In this document: positions 7,001 to 26,777 of the stretch, one piece after another
How positions within the stretch are numbered: position 1 is the stretch's first letter
Layout of the letters: each line of letters opens with the position of its first letter
Source of the DNA: Branchiostoma floridae
Taxonomy: Eukaryota; Chordata; Leptocardii; Amphioxiformes; Branchiostomatidae
DNA: 64,000 nucleotides
Direction: 5' to 3'
NCBI RefSeq assembly: GCF_000003815.2
Contig: NC_049983.1
Span: 19,137,694 to 19,201,693 of the forward strand
Notes under the pieces: model-generated
Told to the model about the DNA's origin: nothing
What the model saw: only the letters and a program-made list of their open reading frames with translations
The model's database searches: none
Position numbers and translations under genes: made by a program

Positions 7001-10000
7001 CCAGTAGTCTGGACAACTCTGTGGTCATGGCACAAAATTACATGTCATTAACATTATATAATCAATACTACGCTCAAGTCAAATCACAATGTGATACAAT
7101 TGGTACTTCTGAAAAGTAGTATGGTTGGTCACGTTGCCATCTTAAACTAAGATCTATTGTGAAGTTGAAAATACATCGTAGTTTTCCAAAATTCTTTAGA
7201 CTCGAACTAATGTAAATCTCTGCACACCTGCAGTCTTCAGAAGTAGCGCTAACTACAAGAGACACTTTCTACACAAGTTTTCAAACACCAGGATTGATAC
7301 GTCCTTTTTCAATCCAAATATTATATAATGTGATTGATGTGACTACACAATGTACATACAATTTCAAAGCCGCTCATTTTTCAAACCTCAAGCAATATTA
7401 CTGTTCGCATTACTTAGCATCTTAAACCATCCATACCAGACTCCAGTGACTGGTCCTCTTCCTCTTCCCTCTCCTCCTGACTCGAGCTCCCCTCCACTGT
7501 TCGCTCACTGGAGAAAAGTACCATTTGGCAGTTCAATCCATCAGTCTGCTATTGTTGGCAAGAAAGCGCCAACCGTACTAATGCCAAGAGAGTTCTCCAC
7601 TGCCAAGTTTGAGGTCTATCAATAACGGAGGCTTTGGCCAGCCTTAACGAACCTTCACCAGCAAAGGGAATTATCACTAATGAACTCCGCAGAGTTGGGA
7701 ATGGATTGGCTCTCTAACTGTTGGCAAGTAGTAGGCATGAATTTGTAACTAATGCAAAATGTACATGCCCAAGCATATCCAAGTGTACAAGTCAGCAGAA
7801 AAAAATGACATCCTAGGTTCCAAAGTAATTTCTATGAGCCAGATTTTGGACAGAAAGCCAAACAATTTGCAGGGTAAAAGACTACGTGTGAAAGAAGCAA
7901 AATATTTCAAAGATTCAAAGATTTAAACCAGACCAGAATGTCTATATCATGCTGTACTTCAGCTGACACTAACTTGTGACTAAGAAACCCTCAATTCAAA
8001 TCAGATCATTTGATCAACAGAAAGCAGAAAGAAACTAGCAGGCATTTCCAACACAAAACAGTCTACAAGCTTGTTCACAGCCTGAAGTGTAGGATGGATT
8101 GCTGAGTTGAGAGACCCTGGCAATACATAAGAATGGCCAGTGGTCTCCAACTTTGACATATTACCCACAATGCCTGACACTGCACATTAGCATTTCAAAC
8201 CACAAACTAGCTTATACAATGGACCAGGTAGGACCAGACAATCGATACAACACAAAACAGATACAAGACTGTCAAAACAATGCATGTTTAACTACAACTG
8301 GACCAGCTACTTACTGTCCCTTCGGTACTGGTGACAGACGGACATGTAGAGACGATGACAGTCTGAAGAGGGTCAGTAGAGGATGAGTAAGGACTTTGAT
8401 AATACAAGTAAGACTACCGCGTTCTTTAAAAGGAACATCAGTGCTTTTTCTGATACTTTTTAAGACGCTTTTTTACCAGTACAGTCCATACTATTGCAAG
8501 CATGCTATTAGTAAGACTGAAAGGAAGAAATAGCGAGAATGCTAAAACTTGGTTAATTCTAGAAAAGGACACATGATAAAGGGAATAAAACTGTTCACAC
8601 CCTTGTAGTTGGTTAAATAAATAAAGCCATCTTGGGTATGCTACTGATTGTTCTAGTCCTACATTAAAAACATATTTTCATTCCATCTAGCACTAGGTTT
8701 ACACACAACCAGGGCTGTCTCTAGGACCTGTCCCTCTGTCCCAGGACCAAAAATTTGCTAATAAAAATTTGCTTGTTGAGACAGAAAAAATATTAACTCA
8801 TCCGTCCGAAAAATCTTAACTTCATGACATGAAATCGTTGGAAAATGTATTTTTTATGAGCTATGTTAAAATGACATGTTAAGGCTACACCAATTTTATT
8901 TGTTGTTTCTCAGATTTTTTCAGAAAAAAAATTGGGTCGGTTGGTCAAAAAAAAAAAAACTTTTTAAAAAGTCGTGGGTAGACCGGAGATCGGACAGGAA
9001 ATCCGAGAAACAACAAATAAAATTGGTGAGGCCTAAACCAGGAAATCAACAACATGGGCTCCCAACCAATAACTGGGACAAAAAATTCAACCTGTGGACA
9101 GCCCTGCACGCAACACACAGACAAGAGTCCTAAACGAAAAGGATGAACAGAGAAAAGCGCCCCCTACCTGTCCTCTGGACCTCCTGCAGGCACACCTCTC
9201 TGTCCAGACAGCTTCACACATCTGGTCTCCAGCTCAGCGTTAGCTGATGTCAAGGCGCTAGGAACAACAGGGGACAGACCACAAGGTTCTAAATTCAGCA
9301 CCATCAACAGTAAAGTTTAACGTCTAAGTTTATATAATGCTAGTTCACCTTTACCTGCAGGGTAATCTACATCAGATTTCTTTTTAAAACAGGATTTGTA
9401 TGGAAATTCGGATATCAAGACAAAAGGATGATGGTTTAAACAGCAGTATTTTGGATCTATTGCAATTTGAAACTACTGTTCGTCGATTCAATATCCCGCT
9501 GCTTTTAAATACATGTACATCAGGTTACCCCACGGATAAAGGTGAGCTAGTATTATAAGGACTATACCAATCATTCTATTTTCAGTATCATCAAGCTGGC
9601 ATGTAGAGCTCTAATTACGAGTATTAGCCCATCTCACATTTAGCCAAACATGGCCTCCTGACCTTCTCTAGAGTTTGGTTGGGAGATTGCTGTGAGCAAG
9701 GTCATCTATGCCTGTGAGTTGGTCAGTGATGCTGCCTACTATTCTTTTGAAATCACCTTACCAGCTAACCACAAGTTTTGAAAAATTAAAGTGAGAAAAG
9801 TCTGTTTGGACGTGATCAGAGGAGGAAACTGGAGCTAGGATAGGATGGATTTTGGGGCACTCAAAGGAGTACCGAGGGTTAAGGACTGATAACACTAGTT
9901 CACCTTTATCCATGGGGTAACCTATATTCGTTGATGTTTGTCAACACGGTATTAAAAGATATGAACTAGACAGATGGTGGTTTCAAGTTGTAATGTGTTC

Positions 10001-13000
10001 AAAATATTGTAGTTTGAAACAGTTACTACAGTCTATTGACTTGATATCCCTAAATACCCTTTTCTGAAAGCAATGGATATAGATTACCCCACGGATAAAG
10101 GATTTTAACTTCTAATCAATTAATGTGAGACTGGTATTCAAAAACCTTATCCAGTCAACCAGAATATCAACTTAGATTCTCAACAAACTATTGAAGGATA
10201 GATTATGGCACAGCAAAAACAACAAGCTATACTTCAAGTCAGAGACAACTCAATTATGATATTACTGCGATAAATCAGTAGAATATATTCCGTAACTAAT
10301 AGTCTGCTATATCATAACATTTAAACATTCATCAATTGATCATCAAATGATGTGTCAAATTATGCCAATGTGTCTTACCATCGCTCTTAAATGACTTACT
10401 AATATACAATAGATTTTATTGATCATTTGTACAATTGACCTTAAAAAGGATAATCAATCAAAATGGTTCATCTATCAGGCACATCTAATCAAGTCATTAT
10501 TGATTTCAGAGCTTCAACAATTTGCAAAAAGAATCCTTACCTTACTGTTTCTTTTAAAGATGTCATTTCCTTGTCAAACTTTTCTTGAGAAGCTGGAAAA
10601 AAATGCAACAAAACTGATTTCACAACCACTTCTGTGTACTTACACTTGTTCTTGTAAATAATCAAGATATTCTTGAATGTACGTGTACTGTGGCATTATG
10701 TGGTACATGTGCTGTGATATTATTTGGTATGTGTACTGTGGTATTATATGTGCCTTGTTTCTTTACTGGCTGGGAACCCAGAGGGTGATAACTCCAGGTC
10801 CTGTGGATGTTGGAAGAGGCACTTGTCACAGATTTCATCACTACACTCTGGTAAAAATGACCATGTTTAAGGACCTACCACACTTATTGATTAGAGCAGG
10901 GGTCCATCCTATTGGAGTGGTTCAAACAATAACAGTCATAACTTCCCCTGTTATAGTATGTCAATCCTTCCATAAATGTGGTAAAAATCTCAGCGCATCT
11001 AGCGCAAGTTCACCTTTATCCGCGGGCATGACAAATGTCCGCTGTTTTAGAAACAGAATATTTAGGGATGTGAAGTAGACGGAAGGTGCAATGTTTTGAA
11101 AGTAACTGCAATATTATGAAAATATTGCAATTTGAAACCACCGTCCGTTGATTTTTTATCCCTAATTTGTAAAACAATGGCCATTGGTTACACCTCGGAT
11201 AAAGATGAACTGGTGTTACATCATCTGACCAACCTTCTATTTTCTTCTGTAAGGCGGTGTTCTCTGCTCGTAATCTCCGCACTTCGTCCTGTAGCTCAGG
11301 GCTGCCGTCAGAGCCGCCCCCCTCCCCAGCCAGCCGCTTACTCAGCTCTGCATTCTTCTTCTCCAGGTCTTCACTGGCTGCCACCACCTGTAGACATGGG
11401 GACATCTATATGCATGAGTCTGGGAGTTTTCTGGCCTTTTGAACCTTTAAAAGCTGGTTCGTGGTTTGAACCACACACTTACACTGTGATGCATTGTGAG
11501 TACAGTTAGTTGTAATATGATAAAAGTTGAAGGCTCCTGAGAGATTAAAAAAACATGTATGGTCTAGACAAGAAATGTTAAGTTAAGATGCCTTTGACCA
11601 AGTTTATGCACTGTTCAAACTGTGAATTATCTGGCCGAACATATGCTCTTAGTCAAAGCCTGCAACTGATGACACTATTAAGTGAAATAAGTCTTGAGAG
11701 TCAATGCATATCTGCCTATCGATGCCCAACAGTTCTGGCAAGCACTTACTGTGCATAATGCTTCTTTGAAGTTCACATTTTGTCATGTTGCTAGCTCCTC
11801 TTCCTTACTAGCTTAAATCCTTAAAATGAACTTTTCAAATAGATTCTTTTTTTCAATTTCTTTCATTTTAAGGCCACTTTGTACAATCTACAGTATGGAT
11901 TGTCACAGAGTTGCCTGACCTTTGTGAGTTCGTCCATGAGAGTCTGGTTCTGCAGGCGGAACTCCTCCTCCTGACTCCCCAGCCGGTGCTGCAGGGCTTC
12001 ATTCTCTGCCTGCAGTCCCTCCAGCTCCTGCAAGGGGGCACCAAACAACAACCATCACTACCACAGATGCATAGGATTTCTAACCGTGGTTATCTGAACT
12101 GTTTTTTCTTCTTTTGGATGTAATACGTAGGTGTCCATTTGCCTGTTCTAATGAAACTACAGTCAAACCTGAACAGGTGACCACCTCTACATAAGGACCA
12201 CCTGACCAATGTGACCACTTTTTTGTGGTCCTTTAATGCTTAGACATTTTCCCCGTTGACACAGGCATTAAAATGTTCTGTCTATGTAGGCCAGATTTTC
12301 TCAGTCCCTCGAGTGGTCTTCTTTTGCAGTTTTTACTTTATTAGAGGGATTATTTAATAAGTTAATAAATAAGTAAGTCAATTTATACAGCCAAAATATG
12401 CTGCATACATGAAATGCTATATATAGTACAAGCCAAAGATAAACAGGACTGATTACAGTTCCTGAATCTGTTTTGTAAGGTTTGTGCATGAGGACATCTA
12501 GCAGAAAGCACTTAAAATGCAGGCATTAGTTATTTTGCTTCCTGGCAAAAATATAACGGTTATCTTACATGTACATTAAAACTAAATGTACAGCCAGTTT
12601 GATAACTTTCTAGACAATATCTGAGGCCTTGTACAGTATTTAGGACATAATGGCTAGTGTAATAATAAAAAAGAAGTCAGATCACGAAAGGGGTATTCAA
12701 TGTCATGCATCTTCATTCACATCTGCAAGCTCAAACACACACAATTCAACTTTCTTTTCTTGAACCTGGAACAGAATGTTTCAAATACATGTTGTATTAC
12801 CTGTCATGTAAGCAGTCTACCATATCAACATACCTTCTTCTTGCTTTTTCCAATATTCTGGCCGATGTTCTGCATAAACGATGGCTAAAACAAGACAACA
12901 AATGGTCAAGTACTGTTCATATACATTGCTGACGAAGGTCAAGTTAAAAGGCTCTAAGTCAAAGTCAGCCAATGCAAAGACAATCTTATTTGATTCCTTT

Positions 13001-16000
13001 TCTGTATCTCTCTCACTTTCTCCCTCAGTCCCATAGCCGGTGGCAGTATTTCACAAATTTATGTACTTCACAAATACATAAATGTCTTGCCTTGACATAC
13101 ATGTACACGTGAACAGGTATGAGGGTTGTCATAAATATATTTATACAATTCCCCGTCTGCACCTAATACATTATACAGTCTGACAGTCCCTGCATTGTTG
13201 TCTATAGAACTCTGCCCTACATTTAATATTCATGTAGGAGTCAAGGATAGTACAGTTCTCATAGAATATACAAATCATACATTTTGTACAGGAGTCAATG
13301 ATAGTATGATTCTCATAAAATGTACGAAGTCAGCAGGGGAGAAACACTGGTTGTATGAAACTGAAAGAAAACTCTAATGTCCAAACATATAATGTAGTAT
13401 AATTTGTAAATGACTATCCCGGACAACAGTACCTTGCCTTTCTCCTTCTGTAACTCCTTCTCCAGAGAGGCTGAGGTGCTCCGCAGGTTGACCAGTTCTG
13501 TGCAACAAATAAACAGCACATTCATATGATAACATGTTCATTGTTTTCTAATAAAAATATCTGAAAGCCTTTCTACAACGCTTCATTGATCTGTAAACAA
13601 ACCCTTTATTATATGATGATAAATGCCCTAATAGCAAACTGTGCAGTTCTTCTAGCACAACATGGCAGGATGCCAATATGTCAAGACTCATGAGTATACT
13701 TTGGTGTAAGCTTTGCTAACTAGGAAAAGATGGATGTGTATGAGCATGTGTTACAGTATGAGCTAAATAAATAAATAAGAGTTAGATTATATAACGTCAG
13801 GATGTAGAAATGCAAACTAAAAAGTATTTGATGGTATTTGACGTATGTGACAGACATGCAGCCACCCTCTCATTGGTTGAACTAATTGAGTAGTTGTCAA
13901 GTTGTCAGGACTGGTCTGTTCCACAAACCTCTGTCTTGTCTGCGACATTGTTCCTGTAGTTGGTAGTTGGAAGTCCTCAGTTCCAGAAGCTGGGTCTAAA
14001 TGAGGGCAGAAATCATGTGGTCAACAATTTAAGATTGAAACTACAGGTAAAGACTGTTTGTAGTACAAATGCATTTTCACTTTGCACCTGCACATTATAT
14101 AAAAAAACCTGCTATTGCTGAAAACATAGCCTAACGTTACATATCATCCCTGCCAGACTAATTACATAATGCACATAACGTTACAGTGTTTGAAACACCT
14201 GTCCAGTCTAACTTGTCTGTCTAAAAATATGACCATCTTATTTCAGTGTGGGCAATGACCAGTGGAGCAGAAACTGAAGACTTGTAGTGCGGTGTATGTC
14301 CTAAACATAGTGCTTGATGTTAACGTTACCAAACATGTCAACATTCGTGTAAGTTATTACTTGTGGGGTAACGTTAAACAAATTATTCATTGATCAGTAA
14401 ACAAGACTATCAAAGACTAGCAAGTTATCTTTGGTAAGGTATACTTAATTCAAATTTATCCAATTTGATGTATTCTCTCGCAAAACTACGAAAGCTTCAC
14501 CCTCCTTTTTCAGCACTGGAAACCAGTGCTGAAGATGGCTTCAGCACTGGAAACCGAGTGCTGAATGTTCGTCAGCACTGGAAAACCAGTGCTGACGCGC
14601 TCTCAGCACTGGAGACGCCGGCTTCAGCACTGGAAACCGAGTGCTGAATGTTCGTCAGCACTGGAAACCGAGTGCTGACGCTCTCAGCACTGGAAACGCC
14701 GGCTTCAGCACTTCAATGCGTTTATATTGAGTGGGTCAGTTTACCTGACACCATTAGTATTCACCAGAATCGACATGGCTACTGCGATATCTATCACAAA
14801 TTGACACAATAAATTTGTTTGCAATCCCGTTTTAATGATATTCATTCCTTATACATTTCAATTATACAAAACAACACAAATTCAGGCTTTTTTTGCATCT
14901 GAATCTATCTTACGTTATATCAAAACCGCCGTTCGGCGTAACACACCAGCTAAAACTGCATAAACTTGAAAAATCATCTTCATTAGTACCGTATATAGTA
15001 CCGCTTTCAGTACTTTGTATCTATACTCTATACATACACCAAGTTACACATTAAATTGAATAGCACAACCAAAAGTTTAACTTTATTTTTAATCAGTATA
15101 CTATACGTCAAGTACCGCTCTCAGCACTAGGACACTCCAGTGCTCGAAATACTTCGGCACTGGTTTGAAGAACGTTCCAGTGCTGAAAAGACGTCAGCAC
15201 TCGTTTTCCTGTGCTGAAGATTGCTCAGCACTGGTGTTCCAGTGCTGAAGTGCCCCTGAGCACTGGAAAATCGAGTGCGGAAGGCGAAGCTTTTGTATAT
15301 CAGCACTCGGTCCCAGTGCTGACGGCGGTTTCAGCACTGGGTAACCAGTGCTGAGTGACCTTTGACCTGACCCGTCGCCGCCAGGGCCGCGAGTTCAGCA
15401 CTGGAGCCGAGTGCTGACGAACATTCAGCACTGGAAAACGTCTTTTCAGCACTGGAAAACGAGTGCTGACGTCTTTTCAGCACTGGAAAACGAGTGCTGA
15501 GGGAGCTTCAGCACTGGAGAAAGGCCGATCAGCACTGGAAAACGAGTGCTGAACATTGGGCTGTTCCAAAAAAAAAAAATAGAGGGGGGGTTGACGACAC
15601 CGAAATTTGCTTCCGACCCCTAGAGTCCAGCTGTCCAGTTCAAATGCTTCGACCCCTAGAGTCCGGGTCCAAAATACTACGACCCCTAGAGTCCAACTGT
15701 CCAGTCCAAATGCTTCGACCCCTTGAGTTCAAGTCCAAAATACTACGACCCCTAGAGTCCAGCTGTCCAGTCCAAATGCTTCGACCCCTTGAGTCCAAGT
15801 CCAAAATACTACGACCCCCTAGAGTCCAACTGTCCAGTCCAAATGCTTCAAACCCCTGAGTCCAGTCCAAAATACTACGACCCCCTAGAGTCCAACTGTC
15901 CAGTCCAAAATATTACGACCGAAGTCCTGCTTTCCCTCGCCTAATAATTTTCGTCTTAGTGTTGGCTTTGCGGTGGAGAGGTCATTGTTTTTTTTAATGT

Positions 16001-19000
16001 GAACGCTCCAATCGGCTTGGATTTTCACTGATCCAGCTCGTTTGCAATACATTCTTAAGAGATAGTTTGAGACACTTGCGAACAATCGGCTTGGCTCGAA
16101 CCCTGAAATTGAACGCAACGTGGATAGATTCTATGCAAATTTTCCCCCAGTTGGAGGTTGTATATCCAGGTACACAAGGTCAAAGTTTGCGTAGTTCGGG
16201 ACCCATACCACATGCCACGCTGACAAGTTTGCTCACTTAAAGACCAACCCCGTACTATAAAACCACCCAATAAATTCGGCTAACGTAAACTACTAGAGCT
16301 CAGTCTTCTGTTCACTGTGGTGGAGTTCACATCGGGGAAGGCTGGCTGAGACGGCTGACCAACACAAGTTTATTTTCAATTCAATTTTGATATTAGGATA
16401 CTACATTAGGTATTAAAGTATGATTATACATAAAGCTTTACCTAACCCAGAATATAAAGTAATGAAAATGCTGGCTTGTCTTACTCTGGTACTGTGAGAC
16501 ATAACTGACAGTTACATGTACAGTCTACATAGCCCCTGTTGGTACACTTGCAAACAGACACCACATTATTAGCCATATTTCTAGACACATAAATATCAGA
16601 GCTAATTCAGTTATAAGGAAGATTTTCAAGTTGCAATCATGTGTAGATACAAAAAGACATTTTGATACAAAGTTGGCAGAGCAGACTTGAAAGTTTCAAT
16701 TTGAACACAAGGTTGGTTTCCCAAAATTTGAAAGTTGCTGTTATTAGGACCTCGATTATGTAACTTTGTTACAACTATCTTGATAATTCTGCAGGGTTTG
16801 ATAGTGTTTCCTTGAAAACCAGTAGAGAAAAATATTTGAATTTTTGACCAGTATTTTATGCTAATCTGTCCCTACCTTTGTTTCCAGTGTGTAGACAGTC
16901 TGAGATTTTTATTAGTTTATGTATTTATAGGGGTCAATTCACCCCTCTAGCTGCTGGGATGGTCACAGTAGGGAGTACTTCCTTAGTGCTGTGCCCAGGG
17001 CACTCCTGTTTGGTCTTTAACTTATTCTTGTGCCTATCGATAATGTCTGGAAAGAAAAAAAAATGCTTTACAGGGTCAAGGCAAGTGGAATTGGAAGCAA
17101 ACAATTAAGCTTTTGATCGCGCTTTGGAGGAGAGAGGAAATACATGAAGCACAGAGCAAACTAGAAAAATGCACGAAAAAACAAGGACATCTTTGACTTG
17201 AGCAGAAGATCTCCCTCTTTGCCAACATATACTATGTTAGTTAGGTCATGACCCTAAATGACCTGGGTTTGAGAAAACCTACAATGTTGTACGAAAGTAT
17301 AAAAGTATCTAAGTCCAGGTACCAGGGAATCGTAATCAGTTTGTTCTTTTTTTAGTGTAAACAGGGTCTTAGATAAAACTTTCAGTTCATCACTCCTCCT
17401 ATCAACAACCCCCCCATCATGCGTCAAATGACTGCTGGTTTACACTTGGCATTGCAAAGGATTTGCAGTTTACCCTTCTTGAAGAGATGGGTGGGGCAAG
17501 TGGGAGGGGCAGTGATTATCCCTACTGATAACAGGCCTGAGCATTCAACAATGCTAGACTGGTCACTTGATGGGTATGCACCTGGGTATGCATACCCAGT
17601 CCTAGTCCAGCAGACTAGGACAGAGGGAAACTGAAAAAGATTTCAAGATGTGTTCAGGGGAATATTGTTTCCACAGCTTCTAATACATTAACGGTTTTAA
17701 TCTACTGAATAGACACTTTGGTAGGACTCTTGACCAGCCAAACTCCTTATGCCACTGGTAGATCTGCCTGAATATTTAATTCTATAGATCCTAATACACA
17801 ACAAACATACCAACAATGTAGCTATTTTATAGTAGTTGGCCGTTCTTGCCAACATCCTCTCAGGAAAACATTTTCAAATCTGTAGGAAATCTGTAAGTGA
17901 AGGTAACTAGTAGTAGTAGAAAGGTTGGTATTTGCTTATGACCAAATTTAGAAATTTTTACTCTGTCCTTCTTATGCCAAAAAGGGACTGTTCCAAAATT
18001 GAACTTGAAAAAAATCATCCCATGCCAGGATGGACACTTCATATTATAATGTAACCTAAAACTAAGGTTTGTTGTTTGTTTGAACCTTTATTTATTCATT
18101 AGAAGCTGAAATCGGCCTGCAGGCCGCTTTTCTGGTATAAGGTACATTCATACTAGTCCTGCACTGTAACAGCACTTATTTCTTAATTAGGTCATGTTGA
18201 TTTGATTGTATGGATGACATCCTCTGGGAATCCAAAAAGTGATGTGAGCAAGCGAATTAAAAAAGAAAGATTGGCATAAAAAAGTTGCCTTGATAGAACC
18301 TCCTTGATCTAAGCGAGGTGATTGGCATTGCAAGTGAAAGTGCAGATTGGGCCAAATTGTAATTACCCTACCATTCATCCACAATCAGCCAGCCTGAGTA
18401 CCAGCCTTGACCCCATTCACACTCAGAAAAACAATTTGAAAAAACATGTTATCCTAATAAACAGCCCAATTCGAATAAGTTTCTGCAGTGTGAACGCTCC
18501 CAAATCACTCGGGGAGGTGGATAGAACTGCGCTGCGGGGAGTCCCGATTCATGCGATTCAGCAGTGTGAACGCGCAAGTGGATAGGATTCTGCTACGTTC
18601 CGGGGTGTGACGTCATGCATCCGGGAACTTGGGGTCCTACTTTGCATCGTGTGGGAAACACTACACACGCCTGATCGCTTCGTTTTTCAGCAAGCATTTT
18701 CCGTTGTGTTTTACTTCCAACAACAATGAGCGGAGAGAAAGGGACATTTTCTTCATCATTCGCAAAGTGAACACCAGAACAAACGAAGCTGCTCATTTCC
18801 ATCTGGGGCGGGAGGAAACGCAGAAAAAGCTTGGGAAGGTCCATAAAAACAGGGACATTTATGAAGATATATCAAAAGGAATGGTGGAGCATGGAGTTGA
18901 GAAATCCCTTGAACGGTGCAGAGATAAAGTTAAGAATCTCACCGCCAACTACCACAAGACGCAGCGATACATCTGCGAAAGTTTTATTCGGATAAGACTG

Positions 19001-22000
19001 AGGGCACACTAATCGAATTGCCCAAGAGCAATGCGAACACAATTTTGGGTCAGATAGAAAATTTTTAATTTAGATAACTGTTTTATTCAAATTGTTTTTC
19101 TGAGTGTGAACGGGGTCATAGTTACCACTGGCTCGATCCTTTTGCCCCACATTCCATGTGTGCTATTCTTTAGAGGGTAGATGTTGGTCTGAGCTGCTCT
19201 AGAACTAGTAGAAGCTTGCGCTGTAATGCAAGGTACTATAGATCATGCTCCTTGTCAACAAGTACATGACATCCGCACAAGCTGCAAGAGTCTCAACTCC
19301 TTGGTTTGAAAAGTACAGGGATATACATAGAAACATTTAATTTGGGGCCAGTGAAAAGTTGACTTGGGCCAGCAGATTTTTTATGAATTTGCTCTCTAGG
19401 GCAAGTGAATTTTAAAAAAAATATGTTTAACCCAGTTCCACAACACCAGCAGGTGTCAGGAGCTGACAGGATAACTGCATATGTGTGTGGGGAAAGACAG
19501 AGGGCCACCTGGTGAGACTCCTTAGAGGAGAGACATCGAGGACACAAAAAATGGGAGGGGGTCTAGTCACAGGCTAGTAGATTTATCAACCACAACATGA
19601 ACTAAAAAAATAAGTCAACTAGAGCAACCCTGTACTGGTAGTCCTTTATTCAGGAGGGAAGTTACAACACCAGGTACAAAATGACATGCATGTGGGCTTC
19701 GTTAGACTCTGCCCAGTGGGGTGCCTGTTCCCTCTGTTTCAAGATTGCTCATCTTCTTTGCTCATCCAGATTTCTTGCAGGGAAAAATAACTCATATATA
19801 GACTACAATGCCATTTGTTTCTTACCCTCATAGCAAAAGGTATGACTGTTTCCAAAGAAGTGATGTGAAGGAGATCTTCAAGACAGTCACAGCTGTTAGC
19901 CAGCCTGGAGTATGCATGACTAATTATTCGCCCACCCATGGAGTTACCTATCACTGTGCTTGTTTATACCAGGATGGTCTGCCACCTCTACCATCTCTAC
20001 TTGAGATAGTTTTAGAAACTCAGCTGAGACCTTATGCTGTTTGTATTTGCAAGGATGTAAGTTAGTATACTGAAAAGTGGTCACCACATGAAAGTTCTCA
20101 AGATTTTCAATTTTGAGGCCAAGCATGACTATAAACGCAGTCACTGCTGATTGGCTGAGCCTCAGTGAGGGGAAACTGCGGTTTATTCAAACTGGAAGCA
20201 AGGTCCTAATGCTGCAATTGGACAGTACTACAACTTCCATATGTACTTGTAGCTCCTGGAATATGCACTATGTAACATATTGGCCCAAAAATTGAAACTT
20301 TTTACCATATTTGCTTCATTACTTCATATTCCTGGTGTTTGTGAACTGTGAAAAAAATGCATGAGGTCATAAGGTCAACTGATAGTCAGAAAATCATGAA
20401 CCCTCCTGTTTGCAAACAGGAGGTCCCCAAGGGAGGGGTTATATCACTAGCACAGCCAAAATCTCCTTTTGCTTCAGAATAGCAAGACATCCCTGCCCCT
20501 GGCATGGGAGTCTGATATTTGTAAAATCACTACCAGGGTTATCAACAAGCTGGCATTATTTCCCTTCAAACCTGCATGAAATTTTGTAAAGATGAAGTTT
20601 TTAAAAAGAAACTTCAGCTAATATCAGTCATCCCCTCTGTGCAGTCAGGCCTCTGTGGCCAGTGTTGGTTGGTGAATTTTTCTATGGTCATGTTGTTATT
20701 ATCCCTCACTGAATATAGTATAGAATGCCATGGGGTTGACTGGTCGGCTGTTTCACAATTGAGTGTACCCATTTATTTTTCCACATGTTACCAGTTGATA
20801 AGAAAGTTTACATAAGACATTACTGTTTTACACTTTTATTTCCCAAAAGCTGATGTAACAAGGAACACAACAAAAAAAGAAATAGAGAAATCCATCAATA
20901 TTTGGCAAAAATATCGTAAAAAATATTACTAAGAAATGTCTTATTTTTAGTGTTACCAGGGGTCATTCAGTTTTTTTCACAATTAAACCATTGCATCTAA
21001 CATCAAAAACATGGCTGCTACCTTAAAATTCCTTATTTTGTACATGCAGGGATATGTTAACTAGAGATTTATTACCATTTTTTGAAGATATTCCGACTTT
21101 TTTTTGGCAATCAGGGTTATTTTGTATTTTCACCCACATGTTACCAATTTTAATGTAATATTTACTTAAAGGTTTCAAAGTCTGTAGCATTATTTTAATG
21201 TGCTGTGATAAGTGTTAATTTGACATGTTAATATTTGATATGATGTATGTGAAAGAACAAAAGTAGAATGAGATCATTCCTACTTTCATCTGAGTCACAG
21301 CGAAGGATCAAAGTATCGGCTGTCATTTTCCGAAAAATTTTGTCCCGTCCGTACCCCCCCTTAATTTCTATATTAAGTTAATACCACAAGCTTTTGATTG
21401 TGATAGTTTACAAGTCTCTTTGACCAGATACCAAACCACTATAGAAACCAAATCTATGATTAAGACCTTGCCCAATACAGCACCGTATAACTGCAAATGT
21501 CCCGTCCGTACCCCTGTCCCGTCCGTACCCCCACCTGTCCCGTCCGTACCCCCACTTTTAGATTTAAGCAAAATATTGGGGAAAATGACATTCCAATTGC
21601 TAAAATAACACATACTAAAGACTTAAAAGATAAAAACATCTAATCTCCTCAATAAAAATAGTAGTTTCTAATGAATTCATCATCGTATTCTTTAACAGTT
21701 TTTCATTAATTCCCATAAACTGCCTGGGACTGGTATGAGATGAAATATGATATTCCCCTTAAGTTACCATCCCATTTTGCCCAGACCATGTGCTCTCCTC
21801 TAGCCCAGCTCAGTCTCTTCCTGATTAAGTTGATGGTGACAACCCATTTTCCTCACCTCCCACTAGTGCAGTTAGTGTAAATGCAAAGGGCAAGATAGGC
21901 ACTACCTGACACGCCAAGGAGAAAGGCAAAGGTTCTCGAGATACTTTTCAAGTCTCCTATCAAAATAAAATCCTTGAGAAGAAAGGGGTACTTGCTGTAG

Positions 22001-25000
22001 CAAAAGAGAGCAGAAGAGAACTGCAAGTAGGTCAAGAAATTGCAGATTCCCTGACAGAGCAGGTACATTCCAGCAAGTTCACCGTGGAGCATCGCCATCA
22101 AAGAAAATACGCTACCAGTAATGGCATTCTCAGATCAGATCTAATAAGAATGTCTAACTCCCTTAAAGTTTAGACAATATTGCAGTATTTGTAGATGCTT
22201 TAATTAACTGGTATTTGGTGAATAAATGTGTTCCAAAAGGTTTGGACAAGTCCCTGCAGTATCAGTCTTGTTGGCCTGTTGTCTGGCTGTGTCCCGTCCG
22301 TACCCCCACATAATATCATATTCATAAAATCATCAAGTCCCTTGTTGTGTTGCCAATGTATAAAACCTAGAATCTTATGTAGGAGTATATAAAGAATGAA
22401 ATTTTACCAAAGTTTAGCTACCAAAGTGCTTGAATTTAAAAATTTCGTATTTGACCTTTCCTTCCACATAAAATGACAGCAAGGTGTTATCATCGCCTTA
22501 CAATAAATGACCAGAAAATGACACAACAAGGTGCTACTGCAAATCAAAGTTAGTTTTCTGGTCTTGTGGACACTAGTGATGGAAGATAACATGGAATAGT
22601 GTTTATCTTTAGTTCTTCCTCTGGCTGTACTGTATATATCTTTACATACAGTCTTACAGTTGTCCCGTCCGTACCCCCATGGTGATCCATGAAAGAAAGC
22701 CCTGTATTATAGTAACCGAGAGGTGTTGTGCAGAGATCTTTTAGGATATTGAGCCCCAAGTATGTACCTTTCAATTGCCAACATTAATTTTGAAATATAT
22801 TCAAGTTGATTTTTCAACCTCAGTGACACCTGTTTGGTACACTCAATTGTGAAACAGCCGTGGTGTAAAACTTTAAGACTTCTACTTGGCTGACACTACT
22901 CAACTTTACCAAGGAGGTTATATAGACCGTGACTTTACTGAGTTACTCTAATTTCCTAACTGGCAATTGACTGGGGACCATCCCCTCCGTTGATGGTCCC
23001 CCTCCGTTGCAGTCTTCCTGTCTGCTGTGTCTGTAAACATTCTGCCAGCACAGTTCAGCCTGGTCTGCCTTTTTTTGTTTTTAGACATTTTTGTCAGCCT
23101 TTCTATCTTGTCCTGTTTAACCTTATGTCCAAAACATCTAGGAACGCAAAAAAAAAAAAAGCCAGAACTGAACTTCTGCTTGGAGAATATCTCTATACCC
23201 TGATGGTCACTTTTACAGAGGGACTGAAGTGAAGGTCGAGCTCTCCATCTGATAAACCAAGGACAGAATGTTCTTGCCTTTAAACCTCCTTGGTCAAATA
23301 AAAAAAATCCTTGGTCAAATAAAATTGAGAGTTAACTTTTAATTATATACAAAATGTGTTATGTCCTTGGTCAAACCACATATACCTACCCTGGAGGCCA
23401 TCCGGGATCGGGCAGCTAGGACCTACCCTTTATGTTGAAATCAGCTGTAGCCAATAAGGTTTTGCACTGGGCAGGGTGGGGGATGACATGCTGGGCGGTG
23501 GTGTCATTAATCACAGCACTGACCAGCCCCTCTTGGACGCTCTGCATGACAGGCGACACCAGACGGAAAGGGTAGCGATAAGAGTGAGATTGATGTTGGG
23601 CTGACTGCCTTGGCTCCCCGAACAAAAATTGCTAACAAACCTCGCTAGCTACCCGGTCCTGTCTGGCTTCCAGGGTACATATACCTTGTGTCGTGAGTCA
23701 GATAGGATTTTTAAATTCTCTACCCCAATTCCCTAAACATCCCATCCCCCAACATCTAAAGCAAGGAGTTTATACCCTTCTTGATCCCAACAAGTACATG
23801 TGTATAAACTTCAGCATGCCTCTCTTCATTCAGGGATGTTTGTTTGTGAACACCACCCTAATCAACATCAGGGTGTGAATTACCCTGATTTGCATTGAGC
23901 CAAAATAGAACAATGGATCCTCCCTGGGTGGCTGTAGTCAGGTTCTGGGTCATAAAGGGGCCAGACAGTTTCTAATCTGCAGAGCCCATGGGCCCATGGT
24001 ATCAAGGCAAAAAAAAAGGTTAAGATTGAAAAATTAAAATCTAAATAATCCTGTAGATGCAATACGTAATATCAACACCCCTCAAAAAAGCATAATGAAC
24101 GGCCCTTTGCGGCCTTCTACATTAGCGCTGGTGTTTGTTGTTCGGGGAGGGTGTCTGCGCAGAAAAATTATGATCTTCGTGACATAAGACCCTGTCTCTG
24201 GCCCATAGTTTGAAAATCATGAATTAGCGCCCGCCCCAACAATAACCGCCAGCACTCGGGGCACTGCACTCGGGGAAGGCTGCAAAGGAGGCTACAGTAC
24301 ATTGATCAGGGCCATATTTGGGCATGTATCAATTGAGGCTATTACCTCCTTGCTGTTACTAATTTTGAGAGACTTTGGAAATGTTATGTTTGTACAAAGT
24401 TATAAAGAACTTCGTTTGTCTCTAGACCCCCCCATCTGGCTGTCTGAACAATTTGTAGAAATTATGGCCCCAAACATTTTTTCAGAGGGCTTGACCAGAC
24501 ATTGGAATACAGAGTTGCCTGCTCAGTGAGCTCCTCTGGCTGGTCAATTTCTAGTTGTTTTTTGAGCCAGCTTTTTTCTGGCAAGTCATGGAATCTGACC
24601 AAGGAGCTTTCATTGATCTGACCAAGAAGCTTTTGACAGAGTTTTCCTATTAGAAAAATTATTTTTTCAAAAATATATCAAGTGTAACTAGTGCCAAACA
24701 CTGAACAGCAAATGCCAATCGGTCAGTTCAGCGGGGGGCCCGTGACGGTTTCTGTCATGTCTAAAGACAAACCGTCACTGGTGACGGTAATAGGAGGTTG
24801 TGGATCATATGCTAATGATATGCAGTGGAAACAAGTTTTGCCACATAGTTCTAACGTTCGTTTGAGACATTGAAAGTCATCAATGTTCCAGGTGAAATGG
24901 CCTGCCACCAGTGACTGCTTCCTTGTTATTCTCCTATGACCCTGTCACATGCCCGGCTTGCACTACTATGCACCAGTGCGGTGATGGCAGAAGCCGAGTT

Positions 25001-26777
25001 CAAGCCTGGGTATTGCCCGTCCGCCCTGTACATGTGCCTCATCCTCTATGCTGCCTCATACAAAGGAAAATGCGGGTAGTAAACGAATTCAAAATATAAA
25101 TGGTATTCAGGTGTTGCAAGACGAAAACACGCGCCATTTTGATTCGCACGCAATACTAGTATCCAGCTCCACAGGCAGCATAATTATGACAGTGAATGAA
25201 CATGTTACAATATTACGAGAGACTCATGTCTTGAGTAAAGTATACTAAATATACAAATGAAAGGTATCAAGGTAGTAATCGGCTGTAGAGTGTAGACAGA
25301 CAACCCTACATAGGCACGAGCCAACAACCTCTCGCCGACAGCTTTTTTTCAGCGTCTAGATGGAACTGCAATATCGCCATTAAGATATCGGCAGAATTTC
25401 TCTCGAAAGGTCCGTACCATTTGTACGATAGCTTAGCAGGGGTCCCCGACAGCTTCCGCGCGCGCGTGTAGATGTGTCCCCGACTTCGGGAGGGCTCGTT
25501 AGCATATAATGCGGGCTCATTAGGCTATATAGCTATTTATGACTGAAAGCGCCACGGGTGTCCCGCGGCCAACGTTCCAGATCCCTCCCGACAATTCTCC
25601 AAAGATATCGGCAAAAACTGAGTATAGATTGGGCCATAGAGTGTAGACGGACAACCATAATCAATGTAGAACGTCAATTTGGGGTATTTTGTTTAGAGCT
25701 AGCTTTATTGGCCGTTTTAATTCTATAATATTATGCATTGTAGCTGCTCAGAAAGCATAAACTGATGAATTTTGTGACTATAGCATAATTAATCCTGCCA
25801 GTCCTATCTTCCAGTATTACCACTAGAGTCCAAGAGTCCAGTCCAACCTTAAGTACCCCTAGAGTCCAAAGCGTCCAGTCCAAGCTTCCAGTATTACCAC
25901 TAGAGTCCAAGAGTCCAGTCCAACCTTAAGTACCACTAGAGTCCAAAGAGTCCAGTCCAAGCTTCCAGTATTAACCCTAGAGTCCAAGAGTCCAGTCCAA
26001 CCTTAAGTACCCCTAGAGTCCAAGCGTCCAGTCCAACGTTCCAGTATTACCCCTAGAGTCCAAGTGTCCAGTCCAACCTTAAGTACCCCTAGAGTCCAAG
26101 CGTCCAGTCCAATGTCGTCAACCCCCTCTCCTCAGTTATTTTTTGGAATAGCCCATTCTTCAGCACTGGGCGCCGAGTGCTGATGCCGATTCGACCATTG
26201 TTTTCAGCACTCGGTTCCAGTGCGGAAGGTGAAGCTTTCGTAGACTTGCTATTCTCTCAAGCTTAATTGTGACGGGAATCACAGACCCTTAATTTTTTAA
26301 AGGTGATCAAAATTAGGCCAAGGGCGATCCGCTGCCCCACCGGGCCGAGTTTGTTTACAAACAGTGGACATCCCAGCACGTCACGTGCACTGCAGCTGTC
26401 CGCCTGATCTAACCAAAAACACTCACCACACAGGTGCTGACGATCACCGTAACAAATGAGCTACTCTGCCGCCCGACCCCTGACAAGCGGAGAGAGATCA
26501 GGAGGAAAAGGAAAGTGCAATCGACCGGAGATGGCCATGATAGCATCCGCGTGATTTTTGTCCTCTGCAAAAAACGAGGGGAGGGCGGAAATATCACCCC
26601 AATTTCAAGCGCGATCGTGAGTCTTGTGAGACGGCAGTTGAGATGCCCTTGCTACACTGTGATCTGTGGACTGATCTCTATTTGTTTGGATGCAAGTCTG
26701 GCTGATTATTCATTTCAAAGAAGCCATCGTCTTACCTGCAAACGCTGAAATTCTTCATCAGACAAGCCGCCCGCCAT
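155..26777 (-). CDS. GRIPAP1: GRIP1-associated protein 1 (GRASP-1), 5' half, 18 exons, 3' end outside window
   Basis: Coiled-coil protein; the vertebrate family acts on recycling endosomes as a Rab4 effector and binds GRIP1. Coding exons in order (high to low): 26777-26736, 13995-13929, 13497-13433, 12869-12834, 12027-11920, 11387-11234, 10592-10541, 9257-9168, 7008-6938, 5933-5844, 5404-5352, 5118-5070, 4880-4810, 4409-4362, 4116-4085, 3722-3629, 2829-2693, 236-155. They sum to 1341 nt (447 codons) with matching phase at every junction. Recognition rests on MAGGLSDEEFQRLQ at the start, QLLELRTSNYQL, SQEEEFRLQNQTLMDEL, RLRAENTALQKK, ISEKLKKKQE and ENLRSSLAAMEQ, all in the same order as in human GRIPAP1 (about 840 residues, so roughly half is here). 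The protein is Glu/Gln/Leu-rich heptad sequence with no membrane segment. The exon 8/9 junction has an alternative pair of splice sites. Intron 1 (12.7 kb) is mostly a transposon insertion. Ortholog call is firm; individual small exons are predictions. Confidence 0.9.
345..610. repeat. Degenerate tandem repeat around 'AGCACCATGGACAGGCCCTG'
   Basis: Several imperfect copies of a unit reading approximately GCACCATGGACAGGCCC followed by TGTTTCTGAGTGTTATA run through this part of the GRIPAP1 intron after exon 17. Spacing is irregular and copies are eroded. No coding signal. Confidence 0.6.
771..1003. repeat. 52-bp minisatellite ending in a partial copy of GRIPAP1 exon 17
   Basis: Copies starting at 771, 823, 875 and 927 have an exact 52-bp period, unit beginning AGTAGGACTGATT. 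The last copy runs into 948-1003, which is a diverged copy of 2668-2723: the donor side and last roughly 30 coding bases of GRIPAP1 exon 17 (shared CCTCTGCTGTGAGCTCCT). The array therefore seems to have grown out of a duplicated exon/intron boundary. Confidence 0.75.
1047..1077. repeat. (TG)n microsatellite
   Basis: About 15 uninterrupted TG dinucleotides in a GRIPAP1 intron. Confidence 0.95.
1093..2608. mobile_element. Inverted-repeat element with ends CAGGGCTCGAAAT, expanded by an internal minisatellite
   Basis: The left end CAGGGCTCGAAAT (1093) is matched inverted by ATTTCGAGCCCTG, which occurs twice: at about 1438-1450 and at 2596-2608. The last 65 bp of the element (GGGTGCACAGCTCC through the terminus) is thus duplicated on both sides of a 19-bp repeat array. 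A 5-bp direct repeat ATTCT lies just outside 1093 and 2608. The CAGGG ends suggest a hAT-type MITE, but no 8-bp duplication is seen, so the class is uncertain. It lies in the GRIPAP1 intron after exon 17. Confidence 0.7.
1452..2530. repeat. 19-bp minisatellite, about 57 copies
   Basis: Unit approximately GCGCATCTGTTTCTCTCTT repeated with a strict 19-bp period, with a few 15-bp short units and single-base variants (GCAC for GCGC, ACC for ATC). The unit has no stop codon in most frames and its length is not a multiple of 3, so long repetitive ORFs appear on both strands. These are not genes. The array is flanked on both sides by the same transposon terminus. Confidence 0.93.
3827..4058. mobile_element. 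232-bp MITE flanked by TTAA
   Basis: TTAA at 3823-3826 and 4059-4062 flank an element starting CCTTTAAAGTGACA and ending in the inverse of CCCTTAAACTGCCA. TTAA duplications with short terminal repeats are typical of piggyBac-like and Kolobok-like families. Inside are two copies of GGATATATCCGGG. The right end lies about 25 bp from GRIPAP1 exon 15. Confidence 0.7.
5636..5830 (-). mobile_element. tRNA-derived SINE copy (intron before GRIPAP1 exon 11)
   Basis: Read on the minus strand this resembles a degenerate tRNA head (TGGCTTAATTCGTAGATTAA, then a B-box-like GGGTTCAAACC) followed by a body shared with 49320-49516, including GAGTATGGGAGTT and GCACTAAT. The two copies are diverged. Class is inferred from the box-like motifs. 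Confidence 0.5.
7019..8709. other. GRIPAP1 intron sequence, nothing recognised
   Basis: Left part of the 2.1-kb intron between exons 8 and 9. A/T-rich, only short ORFs, no recognisable coding, RNA or repeat structure until the hAT-like element at 8710. Confidence 0.5.
8710..9106. mobile_element. hAT-like MITE (397 bp) with nested inverted repeat
   Basis: Ends CAGGGCTGTC and inverted GACAGCCCTG. Flanks CACACAAC (8702-8709) and CACGCAAC (9107-9114) form an 8-bp duplication with one mismatch, the expected hAT signature. Inside, 8878-9036 is a second inverted repeat with about 35-bp arms containing CCAATTTTATTTGTTGTTTC, probably a separate element inserted later. It ends about 60 bp from GRIPAP1 exon 8. 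Confidence 0.75.
9331..9559. mobile_element. 210-bp inverted-repeat MITE family, copy 1
   Basis: Begins TATAATGCTAGTTCACC and ends with the near-perfect inverse (GGTGAGCTAGTATTATA). The sub-terminal motif ACCCCACGGATAAAGG is shared with copies at 9895 and 11006. The body is also partly palindromic. No coding capacity. Confidence 0.75.
9895..10102. mobile_element. 210-bp inverted-repeat MITE family, copy 2
   Basis: Starts CTAGTTCACCTTTATCC and ends in ATTACCCCACGGATAAAGG. Same internal order as copy 1 (AATATTGTAGTTTGAAAC near the middle). The outer right arm is eroded. Confidence 0.7.
11006..11213. mobile_element. 210-bp inverted-repeat MITE family, copy 3
   Basis: Starts AAGTTCACCTTTATCCGCGG and ends CCTCGGATAAAGATGAACT. 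The centre is a hairpin around GCAATATTATGAAAATATTG. It lies about 20 bp from the donor of GRIPAP1 exon 6. Confidence 0.72.
11234..11387 (-). CDS. GRIPAP1: GRIPAP1 exon 6, coiled-coil core (residues about 107-157)
   Basis: Encodes 51 residues including EDLEKKNAELSKRL, a Gly/Ser linker (GEGGGSDGSP) and RLRAENTALQKK. The last motif is close to the human LRLQAENTALQKN. Acceptor CTACAG and donor GAAG|GTTGG are clear. A copy of the 210-bp inverted-repeat family starts about 20 bp into the following intron. Confidence 0.9.
12161..12262. repeat. Interspersed repeat fragment, shared with 49592-49682
   Basis: CTACAGTCAAACCT followed by two GACCAC motifs and a CATTGACAC-like stretch occurs here and again, diverged, in an MTMR14 intron. 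Probably a remnant of a dispersed transposon family; class unknown. Confidence 0.45.
14471..14479. repeat. Left 9-bp target-site duplication of the 11.77-kb element
   Basis: TATTCTCTC, identical to 26250-26258. It directly precedes the terminal sequence GCAAAACTACGAAAGC. Confidence 0.85.
14480..15596. repeat. Left inverted terminal region: arrays of CAGCACTGG hairpins
   Basis: Two blocks (about 14511-14712 and 15118-15555) of short hairpins in which CAGCACTGGAAA or CAGCACTCGG is followed within a few bases by its inverse. The first block shows a higher-order period of about 83 bp. The gap 14715-15115 is A/T-rich unique sequence. At 15274-15298 lies a reversed internal copy of the terminus (AGTGCGGAAGGCGAAGC), so the left arm itself resembles a smaller complete element. 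Confidence 0.85.
15604..15930 (+). repeat. Inner tandem array 'GACCCCTAGAGTCCA'
   Basis: About ten units of roughly 30 bp, each with CCTAGAGTCCA or CTTGAGTCCA followed by GTCCAGTCCAAA and an ATGCTTC or ATACTAC variant. The array causes repetitive ORFs on both strands; no gene. Confidence 0.85.
15931..18408. other. Interior of the large element, nothing recognised
   Basis: Ordinary A/T-rich sequence with ORFs under 80 codons. No transposase motif, splice-bounded exon pattern or RNA gene seen. At 18071-18101 is a 27-bp stretch (GTTTGTTTGAACCTTTATTT...) that recurs at 42508-42538 in an MTMR14 intron, probably the tail of a dispersed element. Confidence 0.45.
18409..19117 (+). mobile_element. 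Harbinger-like element, decayed, with 32-bp inverted ends
   Basis: Starts GACCCCATTCACACTCAGAA and ends in its inverse with a single mismatch over 32 bp (18409-18440 and 19086-19117). The interior carries a broken Myb/SANT-like ORF. Repeated sub-terminal GCAGTGTGAACGC motifs lie near the left end. No clear target duplication. Nested inside the 11.77-kb element. The Harbinger assignment comes from the Myb-like domain type and is inferred. Confidence 0.65.
18629..19012 (+). pseudogene. Myb/SANT-like DNA-binding domain ORF, disrupted
   Basis: The frame from 18629 ends with HKNRDIYEDISKGM, then VEKSLERCRDKVKNLTANYH. This is the second and third helix region of the Myb/trihelix-like domain encoded beside PIF/Harbinger transposases. 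The first-helix part (TPEQTKLLISIWGG) lies in another frame starting at an ATG at 18726, where the usual leading Trp codon is TGA. At least one nonsense change and one frameshift therefore break the domain. No transposase catalytic ORF is present. Confidence 0.6.
19118..20745. other. Interior of the large element, nothing recognised
   Basis: Short ORFs only; no motif, RNA gene or clear repeat identified. Confidence 0.4.
20746..22859. mobile_element. 2.1-kb segment bounded by a perfect 24-bp inverted repeat, with GTCCCGTCCGTACCCCC copies
   Basis: 20746-20769 (GGCTGTTTCACAATTGAGTG...) is exactly inverted at 22836-22859. Inside, the motif GTCCCGTCCGTACCCCC or a near-identical form occurs six times in the same orientation (from about 21342, 21500, 21517, 21537, 22291 and 22662). 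No ORF longer than about 82 codons and no target duplication recognised. Probably a nested non-autonomous transposon. Confidence 0.55.
22860..25284. other. Interior of the large element, mostly unrecognised
   Basis: Apart from the exon-like ORF at 23416-23625 and a short hairpin at 24735-24788 (GTGACGGTTT with its inverse), no structure was recognised. Confidence 0.4.
23416..23625 (-). CDS. Possible exon-like ORF of unknown origin inside the large element
   Basis: A 69-codon open frame whose composition is more protein-like than its surroundings (contains SPVMQSVQEGLVSAVINDTT and PAQCKTLLATADFNIKG). It ends at a plausible donor (AAAGG|GTAGGT). I do not recognise the family. It could be part of an element-encoded protein, a captured host exon, or chance. 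Confidence 0.2.
   Translation of the reverse strand: MFGEPRQSAQHQSHSYRYPFRLVSPVMQSVQEGLVSAVINDTTAQHVIPHPAQCKTLLATADFNIKGRS
25286..25656. repeat. Direct repeat pair TAGAGTGTAGAC(A/G)GACAACC
   Basis: 20-bp copies at 25286-25305 and 25637-25656, 351 bp apart, each near an AAGATATCGGCA motif. The segment between is G/C-rich. Nature unknown. Confidence 0.5.
25813..26118 (+). repeat. Right inner tandem array 'CTAGAGTCCAA'
   Basis: About nine units of roughly 35 bp, alternating CAGTATTACC and CTTAAGTACC variants of CCCTAGAGTCCAAG followed by CGTCCAGTCCAA. Related to the array at 15604-15930 but in the same, not inverted, orientation. Confidence 0.85.
26122..26249. repeat. Right inverted terminal region of the 11.77-kb element
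   Basis: Read inverted from 26249: GCAAGTCTACGAAAGCTTC, two CAGCACTCGG-type hairpins, then GGGCTATTCCAAAAAA and GGGGGTTGACGAC. This is the same order as the left terminal region but much shorter (one or two hairpins against about twenty or more). Confidence 0.85.
26250..26258. repeat. Right 9-bp target-site duplication of the 11.77-kb element
   Basis: TATTCTCTC, identical to 14471-14479. Confidence 0.85.
26736..26777 (-). CDS. GRIPAP1: GRIPAP1 first coding exon with start codon
   Basis: ATG at 26777-26775 in the context TTCAACATGGCG, encoding MAGGLSDEEFQRLQ, then the donor CAG|GTAAG. This matches the conserved N-terminus of the family. The exon ends in phase 0 and joins in frame to 13995, where TQLLELRTSNYQL continues the alignment. 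About 700 bp upstream lies a TRMU poly(A) candidate, so the GRIPAP1 promoter is probably within 26778-27900; no TATA box stands out there. Confidence 0.88.

Follow-up and report, generated by a model that had tools for sequence, protein, structure and literature searches.

Positions 14471..26258 of the 64,000-nucleotide stretch of Branchiostoma floridae DNA analysed here (the window) are framed by a perfect 9-bp duplication, and the question raised by this locus is whether one transposon or several fill the space between its two copies. An earlier note on the same DNA had favoured a single element of 11.77 kb. We give a probability of about 0.96 to a different reading, in which 14471..26258 is a nest of DNA transposons: a 1,170-bp outer element that was later split by a 10,597-bp inner carrier. 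The giant transposon is thereby replaced by elements nested in order, and our verdict is a resolved nest of ordinary DNA transposons in which the inner carrier family is mildly unusual. Transposition of the 10.6-kb carrier, together with the smaller elements it contains, is so recent that a single gap is the only difference between two of its copies.

Anatomy and relatives of the outer element

The terminal features described in the earlier note were verified. The 9-bp target-site duplication TATTCTCTC is perfect at 14471..14479 (left) and 26250..26258 (right), and the inverted ends (14480-14505 and 26224-26249) are 88% complementary over 26 nt, corresponding to 23 of 26 bases. The left end is rich in hairpins, as claimed: bases 14480-14720 folded as single-stranded DNA at -69.3 kcal/mol compared to a dinucleotide-shuffle mean of -36.6 (z = -9.1), with none of 200 shuffles equally good. 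The outer element contains twelve perfect-stem hairpins; none of 20 mononucleotide shuffles had more than one. The strict terminal inverted repeat (TIR) is only 26 bp, and a continuous long TIR is absent.

The outer element consists of a left part of 1,078 bp (14480..15557, plus strand), which includes one copy of an ATT triplet, and a right part of 92 bp (26158..26249, plus strand), which was delimited by end-probe matches and continuous relatives; together they make up the 1,170 bp. A left hairpin array of CAGCACTGG / CCAGTGCTG units occupies 14505..14716 and the right-hand hairpin arrays occupy 15115..15555, both on the plus strand, and the two sets are partly inverse (14523-14613 vs. 15176-15266, 78% complementary). 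Between the right-hand arrays and the right end lies the inner insertion. Because it sits 92 bp inward of the outer right end, most of the right-hand array is now found on the left side of the nest. The right arm described earlier as shrunken, and the left arm described as expanded, are an artefact of this. In the intact relative L018 (1,165 bp), hairpins are present on both sides, at bases 44 to 201 and 695 to 1083. The left part shares 99.0% identity with L018 and 98.4% with L019, both of which run from the left part into the right part without a break. When joined (in a 1,167-bp version, three bases short at the joint), the outer copy showed 99.3, 99.3, and 99.2% identity to L017, L018, and L019, respectively.

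The outer family was surveyed with probes from both ends in the 513-Mb genome, and 20 loci were fetched first. These searches score the best candidates only, and copy numbers are therefore lower bounds. The outer terminus pattern was found at 63 + 62 places, compared to 0 + 1 for a control. Among the 100 of 125 end matches that were listed, every visible pair was collected, yielding 38 two-ended copies with the window included. A second batch of 18 loci was taken from the terminus listing; L057 was among them, leaving 17 further loci. Perfect 9-bp duplications flank 27 of these 38 copies, window counted. They were present at 16 of the first 20 loci, when L032 is counted as part of the 7.7-kb copy L057, and at 10 of the 17 further loci, where the remainder matched at 8 of 9 bases (three), at 7 (one), or at 1 to 3 (three). 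For the 11 copies lacking a perfect duplication the corresponding numbers are three at 8 of 9, one at 7, one at 6, and six at 1 to 3.

Copy lengths are mostly modest: 21 of the 38 measure 1.0-1.9 kb, five 0.86-1.0 kb, seven 0.11-0.49 kb, and five exceed 4 kb. End to end, 18 of the first 20 loci fall within 1.0-1.9 kb, the exceptions being L035 (4.24 kb) and L032/L057 (7.7 kb). The probes designed from the two ends of the supposed 11.77-kb element strike common other loci at far shorter spacing, contrary to the claim that 14471-26258 is one element. The genome search proposed in the earlier note, with both end regions, did recover other copies; it recovered no autonomous copy bearing a transposase. 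Among the five copies above 4 kb, the window, L035, and L057 contain recognisable inserts, and L055 is mostly N (a 5.6-kb pair containing 4,747 N). The fifth, L056, is a diverged 4.45-kb copy without N and with a perfect 9-bp duplication, and its 3.8-kb interior has no open stretch longer than 140 aa. Two of these copies were considered as autonomous members and rejected: the extra ~2.9 kb of L035 carries a reverse-transcriptase open reading frame (RVT_1), and L057 is split by another 6.47-kb insert (1291-7763) bounded by inverted arms. The arms of the L057 insert are of an inverted CCTGTGTGAAAAT type, and the 9-bp duplication of L057 is still intact. In stretches of ~5 kb beside six unpaired outer ends no DNA transposase was recognised by eye, and the same holds for stretches of 7.0 and 9.5 kb at two additional unpaired ends, with open reading frames judged by eye.

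The inner insertion, its passengers and its recent move

Of the 20 outer copies fetched first, 19 are uninterrupted at the position where the window sequence breaks: 18 read AACATTCTTCAG and L034 differs by one base. The remaining copy, L036, is too diverged to show the breakpoint; at 1,005 bp, it too has no room for the inner element. Across the same position the window reads AACATT, then GGGCTGTTCC ... GGAATAGCCC, and then ATTCTTCAG. Comparison of the uninterrupted relatives with the window therefore identifies 15558-26154 as a 10,597-bp insertion with a 3-bp ATT duplication. The left ATT lies at 15555..15557, where the outer relatives provide the empty site, and the right ATT at 26155..26157, as read at the joint.

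The outer edges of the 11.77 kb do carry terminal inverted repeats and a perfect 9-bp duplication, as expected from one very large non-autonomous element of Mutator/FB type. We nevertheless consider such an element extremely improbable: 19 of the 20 other copies are continuous across the breakpoint and the twentieth measures 1,005 bp, the interior has its own termini, its own ATT duplication, and independent copies in places where no outer element is present, and no second pair with a spacing of ~11.77 kb occurs among the outer-end places listed. A single 11.77-kb element is refuted by the outer relatives that are uninterrupted at the breakpoint, unless some further copy has this interior at this breakpoint. 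What had been taken for a very large family member is, for 10,597 of its 11,770 bp, a second transposon with termini and an ATT duplication of its own. A shared block ending GGGTTGACGAC had also been reported near both ends; its inverted occurrence there was confirmed, but the block is a terminus of the inner and not of the outer element.

The inner transposon (15558..26154, plus strand) begins and ends with the termini given above. Next to these are a left subterminal tandem array with a 66-bp unit (15614..15909, plus strand) and a right subterminal tandem array with a 77-bp unit (25798..26112, plus strand), the latter running in the same direction as the former. A twin of the whole inner element was found 2.7 Mb away (C5:16458684-16469281), with 0 mismatches and 1 gap over 10.6 kb. 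One of the two copies is therefore the product of a very recent transposition. The twin has ATT duplications of its own and flanks unlike the outer element, and since it lies between these duplications without an outer element, the inner element used its own ends to move. This bears on the alternative that the whole nest is now mobile as a composite 11.77-kb element through its intact outer termini. The outer ends and 9-bp duplications are indeed intact at the window locus, and the insert-bearing outer copies L035 (4.2 kb) and L057 (7.7 kb) retain perfect 9-bp duplications. The only near-identical inner copy seen is, however, the ATT-flanked twin with no outer element around it, and neither end probe has a second composite copy in its list of matches, these lists being lower bounds. 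Mobility of the composite thus has a very low probability in our assessment.

The inner element of the nest contains smaller insertions. Passenger A (2,116 bp, 20745..22860) has 25-bp perfect inverted ends and a TGGT duplication, with an empty site in L041, L042, and L043. Passenger B (776 bp, 16241..17016) has the ends AGACCAA..TTGGTCT and a TTAA duplication, with an empty site in L041 and L044. A probable third passenger, C (291 bp, 23387..23677), is hAT-like, with ends TACCCTGGA..TCCAGGGTA and the duplication CATATACC. It is missing from L041 and L042, neither of which has an exact empty site: L042 lacks the element and has a small deletion, and L041 at its CATATACC site (bases ~4425-4445) reads CATAT-TAAACTG-TACC, with extra bases that are possibly the excision footprint of this small hAT-like element. 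Without A, B, and C the inner element would measure ~7.4 kb, and its relatives on C17 and C6 measure 7.2 and 7.8 kb (both with N runs). All three passengers are carried by the twin, because the alignment spans the whole length.

Within the inner element, a segment between 54-bp inverted arms (85%) at 18408..19118, plus strand, contains a Myb/SANT-like fragment (18614-19012, PF13837, E = 9.3e-9); this segment is perhaps a decayed Harbinger-type element, and L041, L042, and L044 each have at least part of it. Bases 24721-25181 and 15984-16172 match many other loci, mostly at ~71-85%, and on this sequence evidence we read them as older repeats carried along.

Taken together, the nest formed in two steps. 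A 1,170-bp non-autonomous hairpin-array element first entered what looks like GRIPAP1 intron 1, where 9 bp were duplicated, a step documented by the anatomy of the outer element and by its other copies. Afterwards a non-autonomous element from a different family, 10,597 bp long, inserted near the outer right end, duplicating ATT, as the uninterrupted outer relatives show. Before landing in the outer element this second element already held two, and probably three, smaller insertions. Both families are presumably moved in trans, by cut and paste, with transposases encoded elsewhere; these would bind the inverted termini and perhaps also the repeated subterminal motifs. The absence of a recognisable transposase from the element in the window, pointed out earlier, was confirmed, and the search yielded none for the outer or the inner family.

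Architecture of the inner family

An exact genome search with the inner terminus yielded 38 + 36 = 74 places, compared to 0 + 0 for a reversed-pattern control. By count of the list these form 24 pairs, spaced from ~0.29 kb to 30 kb. Both ends were read for 17 of the 24 listed pairs (window, twin, C17, C6, C11, C14, L045, L046, L081, L082, L085 to L090, and C2), and AAT or ATT duplications were present in all 17. The AAT and ATT triplets together account for 4.7% of window positions.

The small members L045, L046, and L086-L088 are built of inverted termini around one one-way array with ~32-bp units in 4.6 to 6.7 copies. In L085 and L090 the array is partial, with 3 to 4 copies, and part of L089 consists of N. 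By eye, the array unit of L045 is similar to the window arrays. In the large members, counts of motifs on the plus and minus strands revealed arrays of the same direction at both ends. For the inner element of the window these counts (plus/minus) were 6/0 left and 8/0 right for GTCCAGTYC, and 6/0 left and 12/0 right for AGAGTCC; a core motif gave 14/0 and 8/0 in L081, where a second motif had no match, and the ends of the C2 pair gave 4/0 and 4/0. The most unusual feature of the nest lies here: small members have the order terminus, one-way ~32-bp array, terminus, and large ones look like such arrays split by cargo. That cargo split a one-way array is the simplest reading, although with three subfamilies only it is suggestive. 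Judged from members of both size classes, the mobile unit of this family appears to consist of a pair of inverted termini enclosing a tandem array of one direction, and DNA gained inside that array would be cargo. The inner family is a way to see a small array-cored element becoming a large carrier.

A more general hypothesis is that the inner family is a terminus-plus-minisatellite transposon, with short inverted ends and a one-way array as its working unit, in which DNA inserted into the array gives rise to 6-30-kb carriers; these would keep equally directed arrays at both ends, re-mobilise other transposons, and still be active in the lineage. We hold this as a tentative proposal, with the odds somewhat against it as a whole. 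That carriers take up and re-mobilise other transposons is suggested because the near-identical 10.6-kb twins share their passengers.

The largest member read (C14:10906634-10936633, covered by L047, L051-L053, and L048) is 30 kb long and has AAT duplications. A 1,414-aa open stretch inside it had no Pfam match. In the C11 inner copy, a DEAD-type helicase fragment of 116 aa (PF00270, L044 886-1233) was considered as a gene of the inner family and rejected as good evidence for one. It recurs with at least 90% identity at 14 further loci, where 103 or more of its 116 residues are covered, and at a 15th locus with 88 residues covered, and these repeats sit inside no inner-terminus pair (coordinates by eye); from its distribution the fragment looks like a separate dispersed repeat. 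The 15th locus, C11:21861493, is ~8.6 kb from an unpaired inner terminus (C11:21870323), on its element side.

Placement of the two families and the host gene

Both families were compared with known transposons. From the length of its duplication and from its architecture, the outer element is plausibly Mutator/foldback-like, an assignment that we regard as provisional. Duplications of ~9 bp are characteristic of this group, and the perfect duplications counted above conform to this. Of 27 genomic matches to the MULE domain (PF10551), none is within 15 kb of the listed outer ends, the nearest being ~19 kb away (by eye, 100 of 125 ends listed). Tm1 of root-knot nematodes, a Mutator/Foldback family, resembles the outer family in its composite inverted ends, which vary in length, and its MITE-like non-autonomous members, in duplications that are mostly 9 bp (within 8-10 bp for 45 of the 53 complete elements), and in asymmetric outer motifs; one described copy even holds an unrelated nested element (PMC3169594). 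It differs in having a member with a MULE (Phantom-type) transposase, none being found for the outer family, and in TIRs with 13-15-bp tandem repeats where the outer repeats are hairpins of ~23-30 nt (PMC3169594). Tetris, a foldback element of Drosophila virilis, is likewise non-autonomous, with 8-10-bp duplications, tandem repeats in its ends, and an autonomous partner that was not found, but it has ~220-bp repeats in long TIRs, compared to the 26-bp strict TIR and short hairpins of the outer element (PMC4079207). AcademH elements have a 9-10-bp duplication and a helicase-bearing transposase (PMC10045372). The outer 9-bp duplication fits the AcademH length, and no coding outer copy was found.

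The inner element is provisionally placed as PHIS (Pangu)-like. Pangu elements have ANT duplications of 3 bp, and their TIRs, 11-40 bp long, usually begin with AG or GG (PMC4482050); the inner family has AAT or ATT in every pair read at both ends and GGGCYRTTCCAAAAAAWAA, starting with GGGC, at both pair ends. Autonomous Pangu candidates average ~3.5 kb and carry a DDE transposase (PMC4482050), whereas none was found between inner termini, in pairs of ~0.3 to 30 kb. Specifically, none of 114 genomic DDE_Tnp_4 (PF13359) matches, obtained from the best 150 of 165 candidates, lies inside the 9 large inner pairs (by eye). The inner 3-bp duplication also fits the length reported for AcademX, which has a 3-4-bp duplication and an Academ transposase with a nuclease (PMC10045372).

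KolobokP, reported also from three Branchiostoma species, includes composite-like elements that share with the inner element direct repeats at both ends and short TIRs; solo-repeat duplications are 3-4 or 4-5 bp (PMC9587614). The direct repeats of KolobokP each bear their own TIRs (PMC9587614), whereas in the inner elements checked the inner edge of the array bears no further TIR copy. A scan with the 19-base terminus (up to 4 mismatches) of the window element, L041, L042, L081, and L082 found, besides the outermost ends, only two places, each with 4 mismatches: one at base 2428 in the window element, the other at base 1207 in L082. Both lie away from the inner edge of any array, and the KolobokP architecture was rejected. 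A MITE with a minisatellite in Porphyromonas gingivalis also surrounds a tandem array, as in the small inner members; it is bacterial, and large cargo-bearing relatives with an array on both sides, a feature of the inner family, are unmentioned in the excerpts of that report (PMC4596501). Neither family was met in the excerpts of the literature searched (PMC9587614, PMC10045372, PMC12373286, PMC4482050, PMC5802833, PMC3169594, PMC4079207), which did not cover Repbase, and either may already be catalogued. LanceletTn-2 and Harbinger-N11 are named without sequence in the excerpts of PMC5802833.

The location in GRIPAP1 intron 1, proposed in the earlier note, is supported by minus-strand exon-like frames on either side of the nest. 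Exon 1, with MAGGLSDEEFQRLQ, lies near 26765 and exon 2, with QLLELRTSNYQLQEQ, near 13968, and a further exon-like minus-strand frame occupies 11866-12054. These frames resemble the start of the human GRIPAP1 protein, and the host is accordingly a putative GRIPAP1-like gene. The right flank of the nest has a single match in the assembly, itself. The insertion of the nest is probably still polymorphic, and if so, GRIPAP1 intron 1 differs by ~11 kb between animals. Heterozygosity in sequenced amphioxus is given as 3.2-4.2% (PMC12500494). Near the host gene, a long minus-strand open stretch with REKQMRKRETDAQERNR-like repeats was observed at 1329-2531.
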